From contig WEDG01001310.1 of the NCBI GenBank assembly GCA_017591395.1, positions 346,001-410,000 of the forward strand: a stretch of 64,000 nt of DNA. The letters are read 5' to 3'. Origin of the DNA: Schistocephalus solidus. Lineage: Eukaryota > Platyhelminthes > Cestoda > Diphyllobothriidea > Diphyllobothriidae. A model generated the notes under the pieces. The model did no database searches and had not been told where the DNA came from. It worked only from the letters and a program-made list of their open reading frames with translations. Shown piece after piece: positions 6,410-60,235 of the stretch (position 1 is its first letter; the number at the start of each line of letters is the position of its first letter). The translations under genes and the position numbers were made by a program.

Positions 6410-6665
6410 AAGCACTGATTTTCGGGCAGAACGGGACAAATGAGTCCTCTAACTGATAGGTGATCTTCAAAATACCCATGTTAGTATTCCCAATCGAAAC
6501 TGATAAGACAACGAACCAGTGGCACAGTGCGTTAGATCGTTGGGCATCTAACAAACAGGTCACGGGTTCGAGCCTCGGATTGTGCACTATCTGGAGTTGA
6601 GCATGACTAGCTGATGACGGCAAATAAGCAAGAAATGACAATTCCTATATCCCTTGTCTTTGTTG
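6410..6665 (+). mobile_element. tRNA-headed SINE carrying a hammerhead body (copy S1)
   Basis: A leader ending in CAATCGAAACTGATAAGACAACG precedes a tRNA-like head with B box GGGTTCGAGCC at about 6,564-6,574. Then comes the ribozyme-like body: GACTAG, the core CTGATGA at 6,611-6,617, and GAAA at 6,632-6,635. The 3' module CCCTTGTCTTTGTTGAC follows. The same leader, head and body order recurs in the copies at 13.7, 15.3, 25.9, 27.2 and 60.0 kb. Stems II and III are decayed in this copy, so it is unlikely to cleave. Confidence 0.7.
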
Positions 6666-7095: not shown

Positions 7096-7677
7096 TAGAA
7101 GGATGTCGAAGGAAGCCTTCATATAAAACATGCCGTACATTCTTTCAGCAATAATTGCTTTCTAAGTTTGTATTGGTCCACATCCATTGACTACTCATCC
7201 CGTTGTCCCTAAATACCAAGTTAATCGCTTGGTATTTTTGTTCAAACAACATGCCTCCGCCGGCTTGCTATCACATCAGATCGAAGAACACACTATCACG
7301 TGATAGTGCTCAGATATAATAAGGAAGATACTGCCTCCTCCCCAAACTTCAATCAGCATTTTACGTAGCTAGGACTGGAGACCGTCAAAGCTCCTCACAG
7401 TCGCCATTCTAGACATCAGTGAGGAAAGTCAGCATATCTATTTTGCACTGATTCTAGCGATTACGTGTCTGCAAGTAGGATGACAAGCACTTTTGTCAAG
7501 AATGTTTCGACGTGTATTACAGGTGTTCCCAGTTGAATGTTCCCATGTAATATGCTTGCTTATCTACCGATTCTCTGAATGAAGTCCACTAAATAAGGCC
7601 AGATACATTGGATCCTTTGCTCTGCAATTCACGAATGACTGAATCTTTACTTTTTGCATTATTAAAATTGAGTATGT

Positions 7678-8888
7678 TTGAAAAAGGGCACGAAAACACA
7701 CCGAATCCGACTACGCGTCACAAATTTGCTCTACTGTTTACAACGTTGGACTGAAGCGGTCGATAGTGGTAATACGGTGCACGCAGTCTATATAGACTTC
7801 AAAAAGGCTTTTGATAGCGTGCCGCACCACCGCCTTCTTTATAAACTCAACCGCATAGGCGTAAGAGGTAGACTTCTGACATGGATAGAAAACTTCTTAA
7901 CTGGCCGCTCACAACCTGTGCATATCAGCGACAAACAGTTGACTAAAGTTGAGGTTGAGAGTGGTGTTCCCCAAGGCTCTGTTCTCGGCCCTATACTGTT
8001 CATTGTCTACATCAACGATTGTGCCAATGAACTGGACTGCGATATTGCCATGTTTGCCGATGATCTCAAACTTTGGCGCGTCATTCAAACTGCGGCTGAT
8101 GAAGAGAACTTGCAGGCAAACTTAAATCGACTCCAGAAATGGTCCAATGACTGGCTCTTGCCATTTAATGAGAGCAAGTGCAACATCATACGAGTCGGGA
8201 AAAGCAATCTTTCGAACCGCACGGTTTACAGTCTGAATGGCATTCCATTGAAAGAAGTGGATGTCCGAAAGGTCCTTGGAGTCTGGATCACGCCTTCGCT
8301 TAAACCCTCCCTACATTGCGCAAAGGTAGCGAAGTCAGCCATGTCGATTCTGTACCTCGTTAAACGAGCTTTTGCAGCCTTCACTACCGACTGCTTCGCT
8401 AAAGTTTTCGGAACATTCGTGCGGCCACAGTTGGAGTCCGCTATCCAAGCTTAGAGACCCTGGGCGGTGAAGGACGTCAACATCCTCGAAAAGGTCCAAA
8501 GGCGAGCAACCAAACTTGTCCTTGGACATGGCTCACTGCCTTATGAAACACGGCTGTCGAGTCTCAATCTCTTTCCCTTGCACTATAGACAGCTTCGGGG
8601 GACCTGATACTAACATTCCGCATACTACGCATCCAGGACTGTTGTCTCGTGCCAGGGGATTTCTTCGAGTTAGCAAAAACAACGAACTTGAGAGGTTATC
8701 CTCTCAAATTACGTGTGACTGGAGCAAGGCTAGACACTCGGAAGTACTTCTTCTCCAAAAGAGTAGTCGATGTTTGGAATAGTCTTCCTCTGGATGTTGT
8801 TATGTCGGACTCCTTGGAGGTTTTTAAGCGAAAGTTAGATCGATATAATGGTGCGAGCTACAACACTAACGGAAAGCTGCAAGTGTGA
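7678..8888 (+). pseudogene. LINE reverse transcriptase fragment (CR1/jockey-like)
   Basis: An open stretch of 258 codons shows RT motif A (YIDFKKAFDSVPHHR), then FLTGRSQ, motif B (SGVPQGSVLGPILF), the catalytic FADD box (AMFADDLKLW), and the thumb phrase LGVWITPSLKP. Reverse transcriptases of this type copy their own RNA at a nicked chromosomal target. The frame is broken at 8,452-8,454, where TAG replaces the Trp codon expected in QAWRPW. Homology then continues in frame ([19 protein letters not shown]) and shifts frame once more around 8,590-8,640 before the C-terminal block FFSKRVVDVWNSLPLDVV, ending at 8,888. Upstream of TNLLYCLQRWTEA nothing matches an RT, so the start codon at 7,678 is not biological. 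Confidence 0.85.
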
Positions 8889-13689: not shown

Positions 13690-13845
13690 CACTTGCTTGT
13701 CCAAACAGGCTCATTGGTAGAGCGTTCGACTCAATGACCAACGGTTGTGGGTTCGAATCCCAGGGATTAGGTATGACTGGCTGATGACGGTTAATAAGTC
13801 AGAAACGGTCATTTCAGTCTCCCTTTGTCGGTATTCCATCAGATG
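13690..13845 (+). mobile_element. tRNA-headed SINE with hammerhead body (copy S2)
   Basis: The head has an A-box-like TGGTAGAGCGTT (~13,715) and a B box GGTTCGAATCC (~13,750). The body at 13,775-13,819 gives stem I GACTGG/TCAGTC, core CTGATGA and the GAAA box. Stem II keeps only wobble pairs (GGT/GTC) and stem III has one mismatch. The 3' module CTCCCTTTGTCGGTA follows. I considered a true tRNA gene and rejected it, because the anticodon and acceptor arms do not form. Confidence 0.75.
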
Positions 13846-15274: not shown

Positions 15275-15460
15275 GAATGGCGTTACCAACAAAATCATTG
15301 AAAATGACAAGACAATGAGCCTGTGACACAACGGGTTAGAGCGTGTCAGGCCGCGTGTTTGAGCCTCAGTTGTCGCAACAATTGGGGGTGAATATGAATG
15401 GCTGATGACGGCTAATAAGCCAGAAATGGCCATTCCAGTCTCACTTGTCTTTTTCGGTAA
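15275..15460 (+). mobile_element. tRNA-headed SINE with best-preserved hammerhead (copy S3)
   Basis: The leader ATTGAAAATGACAAGACAATG precedes a tRNA-like head (GGTTAGAGCGTGTC and B-box-like GTTTGAGCCTC), then the ribozyme body at 15,396-15,440, then CACTTGTCTTTTTCGGTA. This copy has the most complete catalytic body of the family in the window. Confidence 0.8.
15396..15440 (+). ncRNA. Candidate hammerhead ribozyme in SINE S3
   Basis: Stem I is 15,396-15,401 with 15,435-15,440 (five of six pairs). The core CTGATGA is 15,402-15,408. Stem II is GGC (15,410-15,412) with GCC (15,419-15,421) around a TAATAA loop, preceded by a C opposite an A where G-C is usual. G12-A13-A14 is 15,423-15,425. Stem III is the palindrome ATGGCCAT (15,426-15,433). 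The cleavage-site nucleotide is T at 15,434. The core matches the hammerhead consensus; the C/A mismatch next to the core may slow it, and activity is untested. Confidence 0.7.

Positions 15461-17862: not shown

Positions 17863-17904
<42 letters not shown>
17863..17904. repeat. (TA)n tract bordering PLE A
   Basis: About 20 uninterrupted TA units lie exactly at the 3' end of the minus-strand PLE. Confidence 0.95.
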
Positions 17905-17907
<3 letters not shown>

Positions 17908-17983
17908 TGGAAAAATAGGCATTCCCAAGAAGTATAATTCGAAACAAAGACGTTCTTTGGGAAACAAAAGGTAACTTTATTAT

Positions 17984-18027
17984 GTAAATTTTCGACGCTG
18001 GTACCCCAGGTCGTCGTCAGACTTGTG
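17984..18027 (-). ncRNA. Hammerhead-like motif in PLE A 3' pseudo-LTR
   Basis: The minus strand reads core CTGACGA (18,014-18,020), one unpaired C, then a hairpin GACCTGG/CCAG-C-GTC with loop GGTA, then GAAAA and the self-complementary AATT. Stem I is short. The one extra base after the core departs from the strict consensus. Hammerheads are known in PLE pseudo-LTRs, which supports the reading. Confidence 0.5.
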
Positions 18028-18107
18028 GTAAGTGTGCAAAAAAACAGTTTAAATTTAACACGTGCCGGAAAAAATCGATATCGCTTAGTCATTCCTGCCA
18101 ATTGTTG

Positions 18108-20364
18108 TCATTTGGGGTATATTTCCATTTTGATTGGCTTTCGCCTCTTCCCGCTTTCTTTCAGGTTGCCGTACACATGGTCCAATTCGATGTGTCGGTT
18201 GATGCATGAGTTATCTGAGAAAATTGCCTCTAAAAATTATCGGCCTTTCTTAGATGGATAAGAGGCAACAATACGGGTTTTGTCCCAAGCAAATTTGTGT
18301 CCAGTTTCTAGCGTATGCATAGCAACTTGAGACAAGCGGTCTCGCCTCCTTACTGCCAATTGATGTTCATGTATGCGCGTGGAGGCTGACTTTCCTGTCT
18401 GACCACAGTACACCGCATTGCAGCTGTTACATGGTATCTTGTATACGACTTCTATTTTTATCTAAATAGCCAACCCTATCCTTAGGGTGTACAAGCTGAT
18501 TTTGTAGTGTAGTCGTTGGTTTGTGCGCCACTTGGATTCGATGTTTCCGCAGGTGCCTTTCAACGAGTTCAGACACATTCTTGATGTACGAAAGTGTTCG
18601 CCAGTTCTTTGATTCGGGCACTTCACCGAAACAATCTAGTTCCTTGTCTTTTCCTTTTTCTTTTAATTTCTGTCGTCTCATGCATCGACGTATAAATTCT
18701 CTTGGATAACCATTTCTGCAAAATAGTTTGAATAAATAACTGAGTTGGTTTTGGTAGCGTTCATTATCAGAACAGTGCGTTTTAGCTCGATTGAGTAAAC
18801 TGTTAACAGTACTCCGCTTGTGAGCAATAGGGTGGTTGCTCTGGTAATGCAGGATAATTTCGCATAAGCTTCCTTGCGGTAAACCGATGTTTGAAATGTC
18901 CCGTCAGTCTTTTGCTGTACGAGGACGTCATGAAATGAGAGTTTACTGTCAGCTTCTCTTTCGAGCGTGAAGGTGATACCTGGTAACGTTGAGTTTATAA
19001 TGCTATGCAGCCTTTCTAGTTGATCCTTTTTAACGATAACAAACGTGTCATCCACGTAGCGTGCCCATAATTTGGGGTTAACTAGTGGTAAGGCTGTAGC
19101 TTCTAATTTTTACATAGTTACTTACACCAAGAAGTCGGAGATGGGTGAACCCATAGGGGCTCCCTTTAGCTGTTTGTAGTATCCTTGTGAGAAGGAAAAA
19201 TTCGTTTCCAGACATCGATCCAAGAGTTCCAGTAAGGCAGATACAGAAACATCCATGTCATAAGACTGCAGTAATTCTTCTGTGTATCGCCTTGCCAAAT
19301 CTATTGGTATGGATGTGAAAAGAGAAACAACATCGAAAGCTACCATTATTTCATTTTCTGCAATCTGGAGTCCTCGCAATTTATTCAGAAATTCTACAGA
19401 GTTTTCGATAGAAGTTTCACAATCCCTTGTCAATGGACGTAACTTGTGGAATAGCTACTTAGAAATTTATAATTGGGTGCACCAATCAATGATACTATCG
19501 GTCGTAATGGTACTTCGGCTTTGTGAACCTTAGGTAATCCGTAGATTTTAGCTATGGCCGTTTCAGTTTGTGTTAGGGACTTGGCAATATCTTCTGATAT
19601 TTGCTTCTCCCCTGTTAGACGCTTTAAAACCCTTTCAATAGTAGAATTCTGCGTTTTTTTAGGATCCGTGTTAAGAGGTTTATAGGTTGAACTATCTTGT
19701 AACAACGTTAGAATCTTCTCATCGTAGTCCACCTTGTTCAAAATGGGTGTTAAACCTCCTTTGTCCGCAGGTAGGATGACTATTTTTTATCGGTTTTTAA
19801 GGTTTTAAATGCCTTCTTCTCTTCGTGTGATAGGGTTGAAAAAGGATTTCGGTTCCTTAAGGCATGTGCAGTGCTATTCCGTATTGTGAAACGTTCATCG
19901 TCTGTAAAAGATTCTGCTGAAATGATGGACTCCAAATTTGCAAGGAAATCCAGGTATTTTGAATCAGAAAGATTGTATTTCATTCTTCTAGAAAGCATTC
20001 TTTCTTCGGTTATTGTGAGGCTTCTGGATGACAAGTTTACAACATTTGTTGACTGATTTTGGTTCGTGTAAATTCTATGGGAAATAGCCATCCATTTCTT
20101 GTCCAAAGCCTCTCTCTTCTTCTGTCATTCAATGTCGGCAACATAGGTAATCGTCTCATTTAGAGATTGAAATAAGTGTCAAGGAAGTTTATCTTAACAA
20201 AACTGCATATATTGCTCTTTAGATGTTTTGCATTTCTGTAGTCTGTAGTGAGCATTTGAAATGAACGCGCCGAGCATGCTTTGACCATAACGATTTGCAA
20301 TCTGATATCCTTGGGTAGTTTTTATGACAGGTTTAATTTGGATAAACTTGGACAAAATCTTCAT
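18108..20364 (-). pseudogene. Penelope-like RT plus GIY-YIG endonuclease ORF (unit A), broken
   Basis: Reading from Met at 20,364, an N-terminal region is followed by VVNLSSRSLTITEE, typical of PLEs, then ILPADKGG and YGLPKVHK (PLE-specific). RT motif A is DVVSLFTSIP, motif B is GAPMGSPIS, and motif C is YVDDTF. The C terminus is a GIY-YIG endonuclease with VYKIPCNSCNAVYC, TRIHEH and a GHKFAW block, ending at 18,108. PLE proteins prime reverse transcription at breaks made by the endonuclease. Lesions are stops near 20,160-20,200, a frameshift in an A-run near 19,785, another near 19,460, and two TAA codons between motifs B and C near 19,120. The unit is therefore inactive. Confidence 0.85.
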
Positions 20365-20562
20365 TTTTCGGCATCGATGTAAAAACGATCACTGTTCCCG
20401 CGTAAGATTTTCGCGTATTGCACACTTTTCATATCGCCTAGATTGTAGCAAAACTTCGTGATCATAAGTCATACGTATCAATTGGAAAATAGGCATCCCA
20501 AGAAGTATAATTCGAAACAAAGACGTTCTTTGGGAAACAATAGGTAACTTTATTATATAAAT

Positions 20563-20600
20563 TTTCGACGCTGGTACCCCAGGTCATCGTCAGACTTGTG
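20563..20600 (-). ncRNA. Hammerhead-like motif in PLE B 3' end
   Basis: Same fold as in unit A. The only change within the motif is C to T at the unpaired base after the core, so the pairing is untouched. Confidence 0.5.
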
Positions 20601-20680
20601 GTAAGTTTGCAAAAAAACAGTTTAAATTTAACACGTGCCGGAAAAAATCGATATCGCTTAGTCATTCCTGCCAATTGTTG

Positions 20681-21262
20681 TCATTTGGGGTGTATTTCCA
20701 TTTTGATTGGCTCTCGCCTCTTCCCGCTTTCTTTCAGGTTGCCGTACACATGGTCCAATTCGATGTGTCGGTTGATGCATGAGTTATCTGAGAAAAATTG
20801 CCTCTAAAAATTATCGGCATTTCTTAGATGGACAAGAGGCAACAATGCGGGTTTTGTCCCAAGCAAATTTGTGTCAAGTTTCTAGCGTATGCATAGCAAC
20901 TTGAGACAAGTGGTCTCGCCTCGTTACTACCAATTGATGTTCATGTATGCGCGTGGAGGCTGACTTTCCTGTCTGAACACAGTACACCGCATTGCAGCTG
21001 TTACATGGTATCTTGTATACGACTTCTATTTTTTTATCTAAATAGCCAACCCTATCCTTAGGGTGTACAAGCTGATTTCGTAGTGTAGTCGTTGGTTTGT
21101 GCGCCACTTTGATTCGATGTTTCCGCAGGTGCCCTTTCAACGAGTTCAGACACATTCTTGATGTACGAAAGTGTTCGCCAGTTCTTTGATTTGGGCACTT
21201 CACCGGAACAATCTAGTTCCTTGTCTTTTCCTTTTTCTTTTAACTTCTGTCGTCTCATGCAT
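20681..21262 (-). pseudogene. PLE unit B: truncated endonuclease region
   Basis: The frame starts abruptly at 21,262 (MRRQKLKEKGKDKELDC) and covers the connector and the GIY-YIG domain. VYKIPCNSCNAVYC is followed by VQTG, where the YIG-motif Gly has become Val. A one-base change near 21,140 shifts the frame around KGHLRKHRI. It is a pseudo-LTR relic and not an independent gene. Confidence 0.8.
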
Positions 21263-21461
21263 CTTGTACGGCCGTCTAACCGGGACATGGGAAAAAGAAT
21301 CGCCCACAATACATGTGATTTTGCGCCACATTCCAAGGAAATTAGGTGAAGGTTTCAGGTCAGGTTTAGGTTAAGGTTAGGCTTAAGTGTGGGTACCAGC
21401 GTCAAAAATTTACATGATAAAGTTACCTATTGTTTCCTAAAGAACGTCTTTGTTTCGAAAT

Positions 21462-21480: not shown

Positions 21481-21490
21481 TTAAATAAAG

Positions 21491-22632
21491 TTGAGTTCTA
21501 CCGATGTACCTGCAGAAGCCCTCCTGGAACTCCTCGATATTTGCCTTGAAACAAACTTTTCCTTTGCTGAAAATTATTATCGACAACTAAAAGGCGCCCC
21601 TATGGGTTCGCCAATATCCGGTTTTTTGGCGGAGGCTGTAATGCAGAAACTAGAGGCTACAGCTCTCCCCAGAATTAACCCGAGATTGTGGCTACGCTAC
21701 GTAGACGATACATTTGTTTTCGTCAAAAAAGATCAACTTGATCCACTCCACAAAAGCCTGAACTCCACGTTCCCAGGAATTCAATTGACCCTTGAAACAG
21801 AAGTTGATGAACGACTCCCTTTCTTAGACGTCCTCGTACATAGGAAGACAGACGGGACACTACATACCTCAGTCTATCGTAAAGATACATACTCCGAGGT
21901 TATTTTACATTTTGGGAGTAACCACCCCATGTCTCACTAACGCAGCTCTGTTAACAGCTTGCTACGTCGAGCAAAAACTCACTGTTCCGATGAAGAAACA
22001 TATCGAACAGAAATGAAATACCTTTTCAAATTATTTTCCCAAAATGGATATCCTCCTGACTTTGTCCGTCGATGCATGCGACGACAACAGTTAAAAGAAA
22101 AAGGTATTTCCAGAGCTACGACCTCCCAGGCGTCAAAAACAACAAACTGGCGAACCCTCCCGTATGTAAAAAATGTATCTGAGCTCGTTGAAAGACAGCT
22201 CAAGAAACACAATATACAAATAGCGCACAAAACCAACAACAACTTTGCGCACCCAGCTTGTACACCCTAAGGACAGGGTTGGCTATTTCAATAGAAAAAG
22301 AAGTCGTCTACAAGATACCGTGTACCAGTTGTGATGCAGTTTATTGTGGCCAAACCGGAAAACCTCTATCCACCCGTTTACATGAACATCAGTTAGCGGT
22401 GAGGAGACGAGACCCTTTATCGCAGGTAGCCATGCACACACTGGACACAGGACACCTATTTGGATGGGAGGATACCCACATCGTTGGCGCCTGCCCAACA
22501 AGAAGAGGCCGCGGATTCCTGGAGGCAATGCACTCAGACGAGGCATGCATTAACAGGCATATCGATTTAGATGCCAATTACAAATTTCTCAAGGTCAAGT
22601 GGAGGCGAAAACAGCCACTATCGATCAGATAA
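21491..22632 (+). pseudogene. PLE C: RT (from motif B) plus GIY-YIG endonuclease
   Basis: The reading begins at VPAEALLELLDICLETNFSF, then motif B GAPMGSPISG and motif C YVDDTFVFVKK. FLDVLVHRK and VYRKDTYSE follow. A single nonsense codon TAA at 21,938-21,940 replaces the Lys expected after HPMSH. Homology continues to LFKLFSQNGYP and VKNVSELVERQLKKH. Two compensating indels at ~22,230-22,295 precede the endonuclease, which has VVYKIPCTSCDAVYCGQTG, STRLHEHQLAVRRRD and a final EAMHSDEACINRHIDLD, ending at TAA 22,632. The CxxC between the GIY and YIG segments is the PLE-type zinc ligand pair. The unit cannot be autonomous. Confidence 0.85.
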
Positions 22633-22728
22633 CTTCAAACTCCGGATGTCTATTGGCTCAAACTTTAGCCAACCATAGAATCTTGTGTTAGGCATTATTA
22701 AAGGTTAACTGTTTTCTGTACATCTCCC

Positions 22729-22775
22729 ATTTGTCTGACGACGAACTGGGGCACCAGATTCGAAAATTTACACAA
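22729..22775 (+). ncRNA. Hammerhead-like motif in PLE C 3' end
   Basis: Core CTGACGA is at 22,735-22,741, followed by unpaired C, hairpin GAACTGG/CCAG-A-TTC with loop GGCA, and GAAAA with self-complementary AATT. Compared with units A and B, the third stem II pair changes from C-G to A-T, a compensatory double change. Confidence 0.55.
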
Positions 22776-22842
22776 TAAAGTTATTTTGTTCCCAAAGAAC
22801 TCAACTTTATTTAATTCAAATTTCTTGGGATGCCGATATTTC

Positions 22843-22843
22843 A

Positions 22844-22875
<32 letters not shown>
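22843..22875. repeat. (TA)n tract between PLE C and PLE D
   Basis: About 16 TA units. Confidence 0.95.
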
Positions 22876-22877
<2 letters not shown>

Positions 22878-22949
22878 ATATAGGAGAAAATACGGACCCC
22901 AGGTGTTGAAATGAAAGGAGAAGATAAGGCGATCTCTGGGGTAGAAGGT

Positions 22950-23003
22950 ATACTTGTCTGACGTTTCACACTCATACTCGAGCGCATCATCGGAGATAGA
23001 GCA
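22950..23003 (-). ncRNA. Hammerhead-like motif, PLE D left arm
   Basis: The minus strand has CCGATGA (22,987-22,993, C in place of the usual U4), one unpaired T, stem II GCGCTC/GAGTGT with two G-U pairs, then GAAACGTC (22,960-22,967). Stem III would be the palindrome ACGT, as in dimeric hammerheads. Confidence 0.45.
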
Positions 23004-23041
23004 TAGGGGAACTACATGGTTTAAAAAGGGGTCTTTCGTGC

Positions 23042-24219
23042 TCACTTGCGGTTAGGTCCAGCTACCTCGTTTCTCATTGGTCCTCCCCTCGTGCGCCAAT
23101 GGTGCTTGACGGCCTCATAGGGCACTGGTAGGTCAATGCTGCGGTTGATAGAGTTGGCGTCTGACTGCCAAGCTTCGATGACTTCCCTCGCCAGTCTGTT
23201 TTCGGCTCGGCCGAGCACTTGAGCCCCGTCAAAATCCAACTGGGGGTTGTTTTCTTGACTATGCATGGCGACGTGTGATCGAATATCCTTTCGCCTTACG
23301 GCAAAAGTGTGCTCGTGCATGCGCGTACTCAGTCGTTTGTCGGTCATGCCGCAGTAGTTGGCCGGGCAGTCTAGACATTTGACACGGTAAATAACGCCTG
23401 AGGTGTTTGCGGGTGGTAGTCGGCCCTTTGGTTGCATGACTAATCGACGGATGGTGGCCTCCGGTCGGTGTCCAACGCCCACGTTTAGCGGTCTTAACAC
23501 GCGCTCAGTGGCTTCTGAGACGTTCCTCACATAGGGCAAGACATGGAAGGTTTCAGGTCTTTGTTTAGGCTCACCTTCGGTCTTTGTATGCCTTTGGTAT
23601 AAGCATTTGTATACGAAGCTGCGTTGATATCCACTGGCGAGAAAGAGGTGCCATATGGTTTTACGTTCTCGCAGCTTCTCAGCCTCTGTGCTGCAGTGTG
23701 TCTGGATGCGGCGAAAAAGCGATCGGACGCAACTGCGTTTATGCGACAAGGGGTGATTGCTGTTGTAGTGAAGAATTTTCTCCGTGTTTGTCGCTTTTCG
23801 AAACACGCCAGTCTGGAGGATTCCGTCCTCCTGCCTTGATATCTGAACATCGAGAAAAGGGAGCATTCCATCCTCTTCTTCCTCCATTGTGAATTGAATC
23901 TGTGGGAAAATCGAGTTCAGGTCCCTTTTGAAATTCTCTTTGGCTTCTCGGTGTATGATAACAAAGGTGTCGTCTACGTAGCGCATCCAGAATGTCGGCT
24001 TGTAGATCTGGAAGACCTGAGTTTCCAGTTCTTGCAGGATGGCCTCCGCAAGGTAGCCGGAGATCGGTGATCCCATCGGGGTTCCCTGGATTTGCTCATA
24101 AACATAGCTGTTAAACGTGAAGTACGTGCGAAGGCAGTAGTCCAGTAACTCCATTGCGTGTTCCCTTTTAAAAGGTTTTCCTTCATCTTTGTACCTTCTG
24201 TCCAGAAGGTCATCGATGA
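23042..24219 (-). CDS. Open RT/GIY-YIG endonuclease reading frame of PLE D
   Basis: This is the only long uninterrupted retroelement frame here: 370 codons from Met at 24,154. The frame stays open upstream to the inverted-repeat junction (VIDDLLDRRYKDEGKPFKRE), so the Met is probably internal. It contains RT motif B (GTPMGSPISGYL), motif C (MRYVDDTFVII), FLDVQISR and VFRKATNTE. A connector follows, then the endonuclease: GVIYRVKCLDCPANYCG, STRMHEHTFAVRRKD, AMHSQEN and the Glu-bearing VIEAWQSDANSINRSIDL. RT motif A and everything N-terminal are absent, so reverse transcription is not expected. The endonuclease residues look intact. Its open state suggests a young insertion. Confidence 0.8.
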
Positions 24220-24253
24220 CCCCCTTTTTAAACCACGTAGTTCCCCCTATTCT

Positions 24254-24300
24254 CTATCTCCGATGATGCGCTCGAGTATGAGTGTGAAACGTCAGACAAG
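24254..24300 (+). ncRNA. Hammerhead-like motif, PLE D right arm
   Basis: Inverted copy of the left-arm motif. CCGATGA is at 24,260-24,266 and GAAACGTC at 24,286-24,293, with the same stem II. Confidence 0.45.
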
Positions 24301-24338
24301 TATACCTTCTACCCCAGAGATCGCCTTATCTTCTCCTT

Positions 24339-24341
<3 letters not shown>

Positions 24342-24411
<70 letters not shown>
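24342..24411. repeat. Long (TA)n tract between PLE D and the ribozyme array
   Basis: About 34 TA units, the longest microsatellite in the window. Confidence 0.95.
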
Positions 24412-24415
<4 letters not shown>

Positions 24416-24460
24416 GCAAAGACTTTATACCGTACTTCCGACATAGATACTAGCTAAAAG

Positions 24461-24532
24461 CCCAGACACGTGTTTCGCCGATGTTTCTGCTGCTGTGTGA
24501 CACAGCAACGAGGGGTTCGGCTCCTCAGTGGG
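24461..24532 (-). ncRNA. Hammerhead ribozyme, satellite unit 1
   Basis: On the minus strand, stem I is CCCA with TGGG (24,529-24,532 with 24,461-24,464). The core CTGAGGA is 24,522-24,528. Stem II is GCCGA (24,517-24,521) with TCGGC (24,477-24,481), capped after an internal loop by a hairpin TGCTGTGT/ACACAGCA. GAA is 24,474-24,476. Stem III is the perfect palindrome ACACGTGT (24,466-24,473). The cleavage nucleotide is C opposite 24,465. All conserved core positions are satisfied. The loopless stem III suggests activity as a dimer or in multimeric transcripts. Confidence 0.88.
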
Positions 24533-24815
24533 TCCCCCAGCGTTCTCTATGCGGTTTCTGGTATATGGACTCCAGAGAATAATCAGGGTAAATAATTTCT
24601 GAAATTATTAAGTGCAGGACATGGAGTCAGGTGATTCGGACATGACTTTTTAGGGTCAGATCCGAAATTTCAATGAACATTTGGGTCGAAGACAATCAAT
24701 CACTGTGGAATAACCACGTAATGCCCATTCTACAAACAAGTAGTACTACAAGTAGTATGAATCGTATATGGCAAAGACTTTATACCGTACTTCCGACATA
24801 GATACTAGCTAAAAG

Positions 24816-24887
24816 CCCAGACACGTGTTTCGCCGATGTTTCTGCTGCTGTGTGACACAGCAACGAGGGGTTCGGCTCCTCAGTATG
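24816..24887 (-). ncRNA. Hammerhead ribozyme, satellite unit 2 (stem I damaged)
   Basis: Core, stem II and stem III equal unit 1, but TATG replaces TGGG at 24,884-24,887, removing most stem I pairs. Confidence 0.75.
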
Positions 24888-25170
24888 ACCCCAGCGTTCT
24901 TTATGCGGTTTCTGGTATATGGACTCCAGAGAATAATCGGGTAAATAATTTCTGAAATTATTAAGTGCAGGACATGGAGTCAGGTGATTCGGACATGACT
25001 TTTTTTAGGGTCAGATCCGAAATTTCAATGAACATTTGGGTCGAAGACAATCAATCACTGTGGAATAACCACGTAATGCCCATTCTACAAACAAGTAGTA
25101 CTACAAGTAGTATGAATCGTATATGGCAAAGACTTTATACCGTACTTCCGACATAGATACTAGCTAAAAG

Positions 25171-25242
25171 CCCAGACACGTGTTTCGCCGATGTTTCTGC
25201 TGCTGTGTGACACAGCAACGAGGGGTTCGGCTCCTCAGTGGG
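25171..25242 (-). ncRNA. Hammerhead ribozyme, satellite unit 3
   Basis: Core and all three stems are the same as in unit 1. Confidence 0.87.
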
Positions 25243-25524
25243 TCCCCCAGCGTTCTCTATGCGGTTTCTGGTATATGGACTCCAGAGAATAATCGGGTAA
25301 ATAATTTCTGAAATTATTAAGTGCAGGACATGGAGTCAGGTGATTCGGACATGACTTTTTAGGGTCAGATCCGAAATTTCAATGAACATTTGGGTCGAAG
25401 ACAATCAACCACTGTGGAATAACCACGTAATGCCCATTCTACAAACAAGTAGTACTACAAGTAGTATGAATCGTATATGGCAAAGACTTTATACCGTACT
25501 TCCGACATAGATACTAGCTAAAAG

Positions 25525-25596
25525 CCCAGACACGTGTTTCGCCGATGTTTCTGCTGCTGTGTGACACAGCAACGAGGGGTTCGGCTCCTCAGTGGG
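25525..25596 (-). ncRNA. Hammerhead ribozyme, satellite unit 4
   Basis: Core and all three stems are the same as in unit 1. Confidence 0.87.
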
Positions 25597-25844
25597 TCCC
25601 CAGCGTTCTCTATGCGGTTTCTGGTATATGGACTCCAGAGAATAATCGGGTAAATAATTTCTGAAATTATTAAGTGCAGGACATGGAGTCAGGTGATTCG
25701 GACATGACTTTTTAGGGTCAGTCCCGAAATTTCAATGAACATTTGGGTCGAAGACAATCAACCACTGTGGAATAACCACGTAATGCCCATTCTACAAACA
25801 AGTAGTACTACAAGTAGTATATATTTATATATTTATATATATAT

Positions 25845-26110
25845 AAGGAACATATGTTAAGGAACATGTTTGTTCCGTTGAGCCTTGGGGCTCTCTTTAG
25901 GGCCCTCGTGGGCAGTCGCATAGCAACTTAAGGTAGATCAGACAACGAAAAGGGAGACCGGAATGGCCATTTCTGGCTTCTTAGCCATCATAAGCCAAGC
26001 ATACCCAATCCCTGGTGTGAATCAACGGAGATTCGAACCCGCGACCTTTGCTCATTGAGTGTAACACTCTAACATTGAGGCACGGGACCGTTTGTATTAG
26101 CCGAGGCGAA
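25845..26110 (-). mobile_element. tRNA-headed SINE (copy S4), with 3' tail
   Basis: On the minus strand the tRNA-like head has B box GGTTCGAATCTCC (~26,030-26,042). The ribozyme-derived body (25,956-26,000) is intact except that the core reads CTTATGA, which loses the invariant G5. The module TCTCCCTTTTCGTTGTC and a tail of about 100 bp (TTGCTATGCGACTGCC, then GAGAGCCCCAAGGC) end at about 25,845. The same tail occurs in plus orientation at 27,055-27,145. Confidence 0.75.
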
Positions 26111-27076: not shown

Positions 27077-27312
27077 TATGCGACTGCCTTCGAGGGCTCT
27101 GAAGTGAGCCCCAAGGTCCAACGAAACATACATGTTCCTTAACTAGATCGGTGAAACCCATACTATCATAATTCTTATTCCCGATTGCAACCGACAAAAC
27201 AACGAGCACTCGGCTCAATTGTACTGTTACAATCAATGACCAAAGGTCGCGGGTGCAAATCTCTGGCGATCCACATCTGAGTTTGGGTATGACTGGCTGA
27301 TGACGGCTTTGC
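27045..27312 (+). mobile_element. SINE tail fragment followed by truncated SINE (copy S5)
   Basis: 27,055-27,145 matches the tail of S4 in inverted orientation (GCTATGCGACTGCC, GAGCCCCAAGG, ACATGTTCCTTAAC). It is followed by a second SINE: leader GATTGCAACCGACAAAACAACG, head with B-box-like GGGTGCAAATC, then GACTGG and CTGATGACGGCT. This copy stops abruptly near 27,310, before the GAA half of the ribozyme. Confidence 0.7.
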
Positions 27313-43100: not shown

Positions 43101-43264
43101 ACAGTGATGCAGATACTTCCTGGTCTTCTCCTTCGCATTGCCTTCCATCGTACCTCCCTGTGCAGAATTGCAGGTAGGCCCTGTTGTCATTCCTAACATG
43201 CTACCGGTCTTAATTCTCAGGAAATTAAAAAACTAAAATTTAAAAACTAGAGCACCTATCAGAA

Positions 43265-43400
43265 TGTACACAAGAAATGTTGGGGGGGTTCACTGATGAG
43301 CTGAACACCTAGCCTCTTTGCCGTGCAGTGGCAGCATATTAGCGAAACACGAGGCTGGGCTTTTAACTTATATGTGTGCTGCCAGCTGGCATTGTTATCG
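43265..43400 (+). repeat. Dispersed, diverged copy of the 355-bp ribozyme repeat
   Basis: It aligns with the minus strand of the tandem array: a G-run upstream, the ribozyme, then CTGGGCTTTTA. Similarity fades past ~43,375, so this is a partial single copy 18 kb from the array and in the opposite orientation. Confidence 0.75.
43289..43359 (+). ncRNA. Hammerhead ribozyme relic with compensatory stem II change
   Basis: Core CTGATGA is at 43,293-43,299. Stem II is GCTGA (43,300-43,304) with TTAGC (43,339-43,343), an inner hairpin TGCC/GGCA, and GAAA at 43,344-43,347. The candidate cleavage C is 43,355 and stem I TTCA/TGGG has two G-U pairs. Stem III is broken (ACAC opposite GAGG), so this copy is probably inactive. 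Confidence 0.7.
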
Positions 43401-53940: not shown

Positions 53941-54860
53941 TGCCGTTTGGTTATTGAAGTAAAATTCAGCCTAAAACACTAATAACTCATGCTGTCATTA
54001 TTGCATCTCCTCATCGCTTGTCTGGTGTTCCCTAAAAATAAAGAGGTTTAACACTGTTTATACTAGTTTTCTGAGGAAAATATTGGATGACGGTCGTTAA
54101 CTCAGGCGCATTCCAAACTTGTATTAAGCAGTTGCGAATGGTCAGATAATACAGAATCTGCAACATTTGAGGTCATTTTACAATTTTTTGCTTTAAAAAA
54201 GTGTGACAGCCATGTATTTTCCACTTATGTTTCATGCAATGTCCTTCGGGTTTGTTTAAGAAAACTCCGAATCGATCCACATATGCTTAAAACTCAAACT
54301 ATTTTATGCATGGTGGAAAATTTAAGTTGACTTTAATGACTTCAGTGCTGAATTTCAATGATGCAGCAGAGATCAACAGGTGCTGCCGTTTGGTTATTGA
54401 AGTAAAATTCAGCCTAAAACACTAATAACTCATTCTGTCATTATTGCATCTCCTCATCGCTTGTCTGGTGTTCCCTAAAATTAAAGAGATTAAACACTGC
54501 TTATACTAGTTTTCTGATGAAAATATTGGATGACGGTCGTAAACTCAGGAGCATTCCAAACTTGTATCCAACAGTTGTGAATGGTCACACTATAAGGAAT
54601 CTTCAACATTTGAGACCATTCTATTCTTTCTTTTGAATTGAACAAGTGGAACAGCCATGTATTTTTAGCTTTCGTTCTGTGCAACGTCCTTCAGATTTGT
54701 GTAAGGAAACTCCAAATTGATCCACATATGCTTAAAACTCAAACTGTTTTATGCATGGTGGAAAATTTACGTTGACTTTAATGACTTCAGTGGTGAATTT
54801 CAATTTTGCAGCGGAGATCAACAGGTGCTGCCATTTGGTTATTGAAGTAAAATTTAGCCA
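53941..54860. repeat. ~444-bp tandem duplication, two units plus a stub
   Basis: Unit starts marked by TGCC(G/A)TTTGGTTATTG occur at 53,941, 54,384 and 54,829 (steps 443 and 445). Units 1 and 2 are roughly 85-90% alike by eye. The third is only about 30 bp and ends 80 bp before the CELF exon. Confidence 0.85.

Positions 54861-55731: not shown

Positions 55732-55784
<53 letters not shown>
55732..55784. repeat. (TA)n tract
   Basis: About 25 TA units, directly followed by PLE-like terminal sequence. Confidence 0.95.
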
Positions 55785-55787
<3 letters not shown>

Positions 55788-55880
55788 GGCGATCACAGGA
55801 TGAATAGGTGTATGATCTGACGTTTCTATGGCAGAAAAGCTACCATAAGTGGAGGTGAGTATCTTACCACGCTCACATTA
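55785..55880 (-). mobile_element. Orphan PLE terminus next to (TA)n
   Basis: The minus strand reads GAAACGTCAGA, then CCT and TGTGATCGCCTCTAATATA. This matches the D-type terminus in the order GAAACGTCAGAC, CAGAGATCGCC, (TA)n. A hairpin ATGG/CCAT precedes GAAA, but the upstream CTGATGA half is not recognisable. No coding part remains. Confidence 0.5.
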
Positions 55881-57069
55881 TATAAAGAGGATGACGGTCA
55901 GTTTAACACTGCATTCATTTTACGGGTTAACCTTAACAGTCCACACTATATATACATAATTTATTGTTTTTTTGTTTAATAGCGCTAGGTTTTTGCTTTA
56001 AATTTTAATCTAAGAATATTTTTCGCTTCTTGAAAGTATATCAACCTCTTTGCACTTTATATAGGCTCCCGAAATCTCATTCTAAATCTTATCCATTCAG
56101 GCAGGGTTATGCATACTTTATTAGAAAAATGTTGAGGCTCTTAGCACTGTGCTCTATAAATGGCTCAAAGATAACTAATAATTGTTCAAATACTGTTCTG
56201 CTTTAAAAAAATTAATACATCTCAAATTCATCCCCCCTCCTTTTGAAAACGTTTTTAATTTAAAAATATGTATATTTTCCGGCGTAACGATTATATGTGG
56301 CATAACTCCTAGAATAGAAGAGTAAATAGAAACTGCCATTTGGCATGGGTACTTATGCTCTTACTCGTAATCGATAGACAAAGTGCAAAATTGTTTAAGT
56401 GGCAAGCGCCTGTGCGATGTCTCCGCATATATGCTCCTTTAGAAGCCTATTATTTGGCCTTATAATCGCAATTAGTTTCATTTACTCCTATGCGCAGTTT
56501 GGAATTTCATGAACCAGAGTGCTCTCCTTGTTTGTCTTCTTTAAATGCTCGTGAATGTGTTATACATTTTTGATAGTCTTTAATCCACTGAACTTGAGGG
56601 TCAAATAAACGATAAAAATAATACTTCTTATCACAAACAGGTGATCAATTACCACCGCTGTCTGGATTTTCTGCTCTGGGACACACTATTCAGATATTAT
56701 TTACTCGGCCTTCTCATTTCTAAATTAATAAAACGTCTGCAACAGAGGAGGACATAGGGTTCTAAAATTCTAATAACCATCATTTATTTGGTATCGTTGA
56801 CCAGTCATAAGGATTCACCTCGGCATGGCAAACACATGCTTTTACTTGCAGTTTTAGATGGCAGTCGAGTGAAATTACGTCTACAAAGGCAGCATTAGAC
56901 GTTTATCTCAAGACTGAGCACTTCCAGCAGCACCCCACAATCAAAATAAGACGGTCAATATATTCCGTGTGACCTGAATTGGGTGTGACATAGCGCGCCT
57001 AGTTTAAAGGCTCGTGCCCCCTAAACAGGCCACGTAGTAGATGCGTTGGACCAACGCGGGGGCCAAATT

Positions 57070-57375
57070 AGGGCATGGCAGGCGTTATTCGGGTTGCGCT
57101 CCCATAACAAATGCCGAACATGGAGGTGTGGTGGCATGACTAGGGGCGGCTAGGGCTTAGGGGACCCAGCCGCGCCAGCTACCTTCGTCCTCTCCCGCCT
57201 CCGGTCTTCTTGACTTTGTCTTGACACCGGGCTCAGGTGGGGGAGAAGGAGAGAGTGCGGTAGATGCAGCGCAAGTCTGCTGTCACTTTAAACTAAATCA
57301 CGCGCAAGTCACCGTCCCTGCTCCAATTTCCCATGGAGTATACGGTGGACATCGTCGGACTACGACGGTCGAAAT
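57070..57375 (+). repeat. Rep-A copy
   Basis: Nearly the exact complement of 1,028-1,331 over ~290 bp, the best-preserved pair in the window. Confidence 0.85.
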
Positions 57376-57384
57376 GTAGTTTAA

Positions 57385-59959: not shown

Positions 59960-60235
59960 CTGACAAAAACAAGGAAGACTCAAATGGCCATTTTTTGCTT
60001 ATTAGATATCATCAGCCAATCATACGCCCCCCAGGTGTTGCAGCACCCGAGACTCGAACTCGCGACCTGTTGGTTAGAAGTCCAACTCTGTGCCCACTGC
60101 ACCATGAGCCCGTTGTTTTGTGGGCTTCGATTGAAAATATTCACTATGTTAGGCAGGCACTCACCCACCGGTTACAAGACTCACTCGTGCCGTTATGTTC
60201 TGCAGCCACTTTCGTTAATATAAATGATATTGTTA
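59960..60235 (-). mobile_element. tRNA-headed SINE with hammerhead body (copy S6)
   Basis: The minus strand has the leader (CAGAACATAACGGCACGAG, then TTTTCAATCGAAGCCCAC), and a tRNA-like head with B box GAGTTCGAGTCTC. The body at 59,976-60,021 has GATTGG, core CTGATGA and palindrome AATGGCCATT. Stem II has decayed and GAAA reads AAAA, so it should be inactive. This copy shows the longest leader match to S1. Confidence 0.75.

Follow-up and report, generated by a model that had tools for sequence, protein, structure and literature searches.

The closest described systems to the repeat considered here are the non-LTR retrozymes of metazoans, the hammerhead-bearing satellites of newts and schistosomes, and the Penelope-like elements. 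In the study by Cervera and de la Pena (PMC7229834), animal retrozyme circles are proposed to be reverse transcribed into tandem cDNA, with Penelope-like elements as a strong candidate helper, since the two kinds of element have type I hammerheads and tandem copies in common and are found together; platyhelminths are named there collectively among the retrozyme hosts. Features expected of a metazoan non-LTR retrozyme include the absence of an LTR, a primer binding site and a polypurine tract, target-site duplications that, when present, are longer than 4 bp, a very stable and strongly paired monomer RNA, numerous copies dispersed through the genome, and unit-length RNA in linear and circular form. 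Metazoan retrozyme examples have above 70% of their bases paired (PMC4918200), and dimeric cleavage is described for newt and other type I motifs in PMC6155905, PMC7761336 and PMC3088659. In a lizard Penelope-like element, the protein cleaves AT-rich DNA and copying begins at an internal site, 111-118 into an ORF whose hammerhead cut is at +26 (PMC11167929), which by subtraction places the start site about 85-92 nt past the hammerhead cut.

The window, which is the whole stretch of 64,000 nucleotides that was analysed, contains a single array of a 355-bp repeat, and no other array of this repeat was found in it by TRF or blastn. TRF reports a period of 355, 4.0 copies and 98% matches at 24412-25820, in agreement with the four-unit tandem of 355 bp described in the first-pass annotation. 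The array and its hammerheads are as follows.

24412..25820, minus strand in the hammerhead sense: retrozyme-like array of four 355-bp units (TRF, unit comparison, frame scan)
24341..24410, no strand: (AT)n tract at the boundary between the array and Penelope-like element B
25818..25846, no strand: AT-only stretch at the opposite end of the array
24461..24532, minus strand: hammerhead of unit 1, predicted cut after C17 at 24465 (descriptor; RF00163, 22.8 bits)
24816..24887, minus strand: hammerhead of unit 2, predicted cut after C17 at 24820, with damage to stem I (RF00163, 14.2 bits); its outer bounds were placed as in unit 1, by analogy
25171..25242, minus strand: hammerhead of unit 3, predicted cut after C17 at 25175 (descriptor, RF00163)
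25525..25596, minus strand: hammerhead of unit 4, predicted cut after C17 at 25529 (descriptor, RF00163)

The units are 355, 355, 354 and 345 bp long and differ pairwise by 1 to 7 substitutions (0.28-2.03%), with a few length changes besides. Only two of the 11 variable columns are common to two units, and these two conflict with each other, so that the pattern of divergence is close to a star. The array begins and ends at nearly the same unit phase, inside GTATGAATCGTATATGG, and thus amounts to four whole units minus 8 nt; on the minus strand its end lies 53 nt beyond the last predicted cut site. Because AT tracts hold both ends, a target-site duplication would be indistinguishable there. The G+C content of unit 3 is 43.8%, no frame lying wholly within the array exceeds 80 aa, no reverse transcriptase frame is among them, and a protein search with the 80-aa array frame gave no homologue.

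On the minus strand, all four units carry the hammerhead core (CTGAGGA, GAAA and C17), the palindrome ACACGTGT as stem III, and a stem II of GCCGA/TCGGC around a 7-bp inner hairpin, while stem I (CCCA/TGGG) is whole in units 1, 3 and 4 and has one mismatch and one wobble in unit 2. Examined as a type I motif, with the core, three stems and entry through stem I, the core is thus present in four of four units and all stems in three of four. The first-pass annotation had claimed this core and stem II, a perfectly palindromic stem III, a stem I intact in three of the four units, and a cut site opposite position 24,465; each of these was borne out, the last exactly, since C17 of unit 1 is at 24465.

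A second, diverged sequence related to the array's hammerhead domain lies elsewhere in the window.

43260..43380, plus strand: diverged relative of the array's hammerhead domain (blastn E 3.5e-5)

Its alignment score of 77 compares with a best of 35 among 500 shuffles, and 18 of 21 pairs of the array's structure are kept despite 15 substitutions at paired columns. Three pairs have changed on both sides, one each in the outer part of stem I, in stem II and in the inner hairpin, a count reached in 7 of 500 shuffles; six slid structures give 0. Two rougher nulls give P values of 0.10 and 0.015, and further pair types show no excess, all 500 of 500 shuffles reaching their count. Taken together, the pair changes lend moderate support to a hammerhead relation between this domain and the array. 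Model R1 scores 110.8 bits on the 43-kb domain, which was itself used in building that model. The change of position 16.1 from U to G suggests that this copy is probably inactive. Kinship over the whole unit was hinted at by a local alignment (score 110, against a best of 83 among 200 shuffles) and was then rejected, since the flanks outside the hammerhead domain score within the range of shuffled sequence (222 and 469 of 500 shuffles do at least as well).

The array is probably a genomic copy of a non-autonomous, non-LTR retrozyme of the animal type. The sequence features that point to this are tandem units within the range of 150-450 bp with type I hammerheads, a G+C content below 50%, the absence of a protein-coding region, and a location between AT tracts next to Penelope-like elements; weighing against it are a score below the cut-off of the Rfam family RF00163, the damaged stem I of unit 2, and a pairing of 60-64% in the predicted circle. 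The first of the competing explanations, an ordinary satellite that grew by unequal crossing-over or slippage after one insertion, with a relic hammerhead that played no RNA role in its spread, appears unlikely. It would suit the presence of a single array in the window, the damage to stem I in one unit, and the one informative substitution that separates units 1-2 from units 3-4, as local duplication could give; but it sits poorly with the near-star divergence, in which the only two columns common to two units out of 11 are in conflict, with the both-sided changes of stem pairs in the 43-kb domain, and with the location of both array ends in AT tracts at nearly the same phase.

The retrozyme-like array abuts a group of Penelope-like elements, comprising three ORF-bearing copies and one partial copy between 17.9 and 24.3 kb.

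17905..20475, minus strand: Penelope-like copy A, with a hammerhead-like motif at 17990-18020; inner bound approximate
20476-21263: partial copy of the 3' part of copy A, directly after copy A
21482..22844, plus strand: Penelope-like copy, with a hammerhead-like motif at 22735-22765
22876..24340, minus strand: Penelope-like element B, 5'-truncated, with an ORF at 23042-24253 and inverted terminal repeats that each contain a hammerhead-like motif

The outer bounds of element B were taken from the flanking TA tracts, and its hammerhead-like motifs have CCGATGA in place of CTGANGA. Its ORF aligns with residues 270-658 of a 667-aa relative, indicating 5' truncation, and gives an RVT_1 match of 26.3 bits, below the Pfam cut-off of 29.6. 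Among the best 120 of 1434 matches, the eight best-listed Sparganum/Spirometra proteins share 79-83% identity with it over 97% of its length (the named relatives being from Sparganum proliferum and Spirometra erinaceieuropaei), a Schistocephalus protein shares 85% over 28% of the length, and three listed relatives contain a GIY-YIG domain (PF01541); no endonuclease domain was found by Pfam in the frames tested from the window itself. The tapeworm origin that had been proposed from the letters alone gains backing from these matches of the ORF next to the array. They place the window in a diphyllobothriidean tapeworm, probably a species other than the two best-matched ones. There are 16 matches to CTGANGA-N3..30-GAAA in the window, where 5.4 would be expected and none of 100 shuffles has more than 12; three of the 16 are Penelope-like motifs (17990-18020, 20563-20593 and 22735-22765) and three are in SINE copies, while the array is absent from the matches because its spacing is 45 nt. 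If their stem II is read as GAC...GTC, the Penelope-like motifs at 17990-18020 (minus strand), 20563-20593 (minus strand) and 22735-22765 (plus strand) have an extra base between A9 and stem II.

The window contains five (TA)n tracts of at least 16 bp, at 17863, 21460, 22845, 24341 and 55733, and all five lie 40-89 nt past hammerhead-like motifs, two of which are partial or decayed: the Penelope-like end at 21460 has lost its CTGA half, and the end at 55.8 kb is decayed. The GAAA of the nearest hammerhead-like motif, or what remains of it, lies 86, 52, 80 and 89, 52, and 40 nt from the tract at six Penelope-like ends, and 63 nt from it in the case of the array. There are two counter-examples: the Penelope-like motif at 20563-20593 is followed by a junction that is not TA, and no (TA)n tract adjoins the Penelope-like fragment at 48.5 kb. 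Hammerhead-bearing retroelements are thus clustered at (TA)n tracts here, with the array at one end of the cluster, a setting absent from the first-pass annotation. The outlying tract belongs to the following feature.

55733-55930: (TA)n tract and decayed hammerhead-like motif resembling that of element B; no ORF detected

Given these neighbours, the array might be thought to consist of the stacked terminal repeats of a Penelope-like element. This is very unlikely: the array does abut such an element, and terminal repeats of Penelope-like elements carry hammerheads and the elements occur in tandem (PMC11167929), but the unit has no blastn similarity to any Penelope-like copy in the window, its stem II encloses 45 nt compared with spacers of 20 nt in three Penelope-like motifs, and it lacks a reverse transcriptase frame.

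The significance of the hammerhead itself was assessed by descriptor searches and by Rfam. A loose hammerhead descriptor has three matches in the window, which are exactly units 1, 3 and 4, unit 2 being missed; it has one match in 30 random windows drawn from a first-order Markov model, and 97 in 2400 random 64-kb windows (0.04 per window). The strict form (stems I/II/III of at least 4/5/4 bp), which units 1, 3 and 4 also satisfy, matches just once in these 2400 windows, which were generated with a first-order Markov model fitted to the window; this corresponds to a chance of about 4 in 10,000, since the four units represent one independent event. Across the whole 64-kb window, every Rfam family stays below its gathering score. 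In a search of 1.6 kb, RF00163 (Hammerhead_1) scores 22.8 bits (E 0.014) on each of units 1, 3 and 4 and 14.2 bits (E 9.7) on unit 2, so that no unit reaches the gathering cut-off of 34 bits; in the 64-kb search just two units are reported, with an E value of 0.56. The low score is probably due to the cost of a long loop, as stem II here encloses 45 nt and the model has 45 positions in total. A check of the minus strand with type I and type III hammerhead models, suggested at the outset, thus yielded sub-threshold matches to the type I family but none above 34 bits, and no type III family was reported in either the 64-kb window or the 1.6-kb region. That an unrelated repeat merely happens to look like a hammerhead, a view for which the sub-threshold Rfam scores and the single independent event could be cited, is most improbable in view of the one strict match in 2400 random windows and the related 43-kb domain with its both-sided changes. 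Two patterns searched against viral contigs had 0 matches each; one 17-mer had 4 matches in prokaryote genomes, which were taken as chance, and model R1 found nothing there.

Constrained folds, in which the core bases were left unpaired and the pairs of stems I, II and III were imposed, place the hammerhead 1.8 kcal/mol above the minimum. The value holds for a 96-nt and a 221-nt stretch of unit 3 as well as for a 95-nt stretch of unit 4, and so small a gap suggests that the ribozyme would not be locked away in other folds. An earlier comparison of a hand-drawn hammerhead (-20.6) with the minimum (-34.8) was superseded by these folds, since helix extensions had been omitted from it. Within a monomer, stem III is predicted to consist of 2 bp and a 4-nt loop, which makes dimeric cleavage likely; the duplex of the stem III palindrome alone is calculated at -10.3 kcal/mol. 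A candidate kissing pair, GGGG/CCCC, between the loops of stems I and II has a duplex energy of -8.6, and the lowest-energy folds pair those Gs inside stem I. Three monomers folded as circles are only slightly more stable than shuffles, with z values of -2.5, -1.3 and -2.0 on the minus strand, where 60-64% of bases are paired, and -1.3, -1.1 and -2.1 on the plus strand; these values are alike, so circle folding gives no preference for the minus strand.

A mechanism for the formation of the array can be proposed, in which read-through transcription of the minus strand would yield a multimeric RNA, and each hammerhead would cut after C17, a step made easiest by pairing of two units across the 8-bp palindromic stem III. 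The RNA of about 355 nt would then be circularised by a host ligase, and a reverse transcriptase would copy the circle for several rounds, giving tandem cDNA that is joined to an AT-rich break. The likeliest helper would be a Penelope-like element: were its copying primed at a (TA)n break close to the unit's AUAUA and continued for about four rounds, the product would be a near-whole number of units that stops about 50 nt beyond the final cut. Support for such a helper comes from the AT tracts at both ends of the array, the nearly identical phase of those ends, the near-identical units with their almost star-like divergence, and the Penelope-like neighbours. Pointing the other way, blastn finds no sequence common to the unit and the Penelope-like copies, the lizard element was inserted in vitro without hammerhead cleavage (PMC11167929), and the two counter-examples at 20563-20593 and 48.5 kb lack an adjoining (TA)n tract. 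Penelope-like machinery as the mover of the array is a tentative proposal, which fits the observations without proof, and the broader idea that one (TA)n-targeting Penelope-like machine in the tapeworm lineage inserts both its own hammerhead-bearing elements and retrozyme circles is no firmer. If that idea were true, internal priming on a circular RNA would have left its trace in the near-whole unit number and in the arrangement that the elements have in common, a hammerhead followed by a tail of 40-89 nt and then (TA)n.

The window also contains six short SINE-like copies, whose heads we take to be tRNA-like from a B-box motif.

6515-6659, plus strand: SINE-like copy
13708-13827, plus strand: SINE-like copy
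15319-15450, plus strand: SINE-like copy
25946-26087, minus strand: SINE-like copy
27206-27311, plus strand: SINE-like copy, truncated
59967-60107, minus strand: SINE-like copy

After the head, their consensus has a hammerhead-like arrangement of a CTGATGA core, GAAA, a palindromic stem III ATGGCCAT and a 6-bp stem I, and the copies are reminiscent of schistosome SMalpha; no Rfam match was found for them. In the five copies other than the truncated sixth, 76.6% of cells are paired, with no both-sided change, and 385 of 500 shuffles reach this value, although slid structures pair less than the hammerhead structure. Since pairing shows no excess over shuffles, the SINE hammerhead is a suggestion at the level of the consensus. 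A SINE model built from the window has no match in the array, and ARAGORN finds no tRNA in the window, making the tRNA-headed schistosome satellite the poorer comparison for the array. Of the two likenesses drawn in the first-pass annotation, that to animal retrozymes therefore holds, while that to a schistosome satellite fits less well.

Several further features were noted in the window.

7672-8454, plus strand: reverse transcriptase ORF of another retrotransposon (RVT_1, 85.6 bits)
1023-1336: first copy of a dispersed repeat, with 93.5% identity between 1030-1336 and an inverted copy at 57071-57377, and about 80% to 2185-2429
53941-54859: 476-bp repeat in two tandem copies of 88% identity
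41431-41673: imperfect palindrome of about 240 bp, with 75% identity to its own reverse complement

No tapeworm example of such a repeat was found in the literature covered, which consisted mostly of papers outside subscription, and the array would add one to the known retrozyme-like repeats. Among the satellites, newt satellite 2 (PMC6155905) resembles the array in being a satellite with a type I hammerhead, a weak stem III and, as described there, dimeric cleavage, and differs in its host; schistosome SMalpha (PMC8490949) is also a flatworm repeat, of 335 bp, with a type I hammerhead, whereas no tRNA-like head was found in the array unit. Both are likened to the array by description, not by sequence. 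The metazoan non-LTR retrozymes of Cervera and de la Pena 2020 (PMC7229834) share with it tandem repeats of 150-450 bp, type I hammerheads, a G+C content under 50%, the lack of an encoded protein and, as judged from the repeat structure, the lack of LTRs. The array differs from them in comprising four units at one locus, in its long extended stem II, and in having 60-64% rather than above 70% (PMC4918200) of the bases paired in the predicted circle, this likeness too being one of description and not of sequence.

The Penelope-like elements (PMC11167929) resemble the array in having a hammerhead near the 3' end, an AT-rich target and tandem copies, and differ from it in that the array unit lacks an ORF and does not resemble any Penelope-like copy in the window by sequence. 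The setting of the array bears on which enzyme copies animal retrozymes: with the array and the Penelope-like elements side by side, at the same kind of target and with similar end geometry, the helper idea becomes testable in diphyllobothriidean genomes, and if a single machine did insert both, the locus would speak directly, at the level of the genome, for the helper that has been proposed for animal retrozymes. In comparison with these systems, the repeats are of a kind already known in animals, and the array is probably a further example of it, in an informative place.
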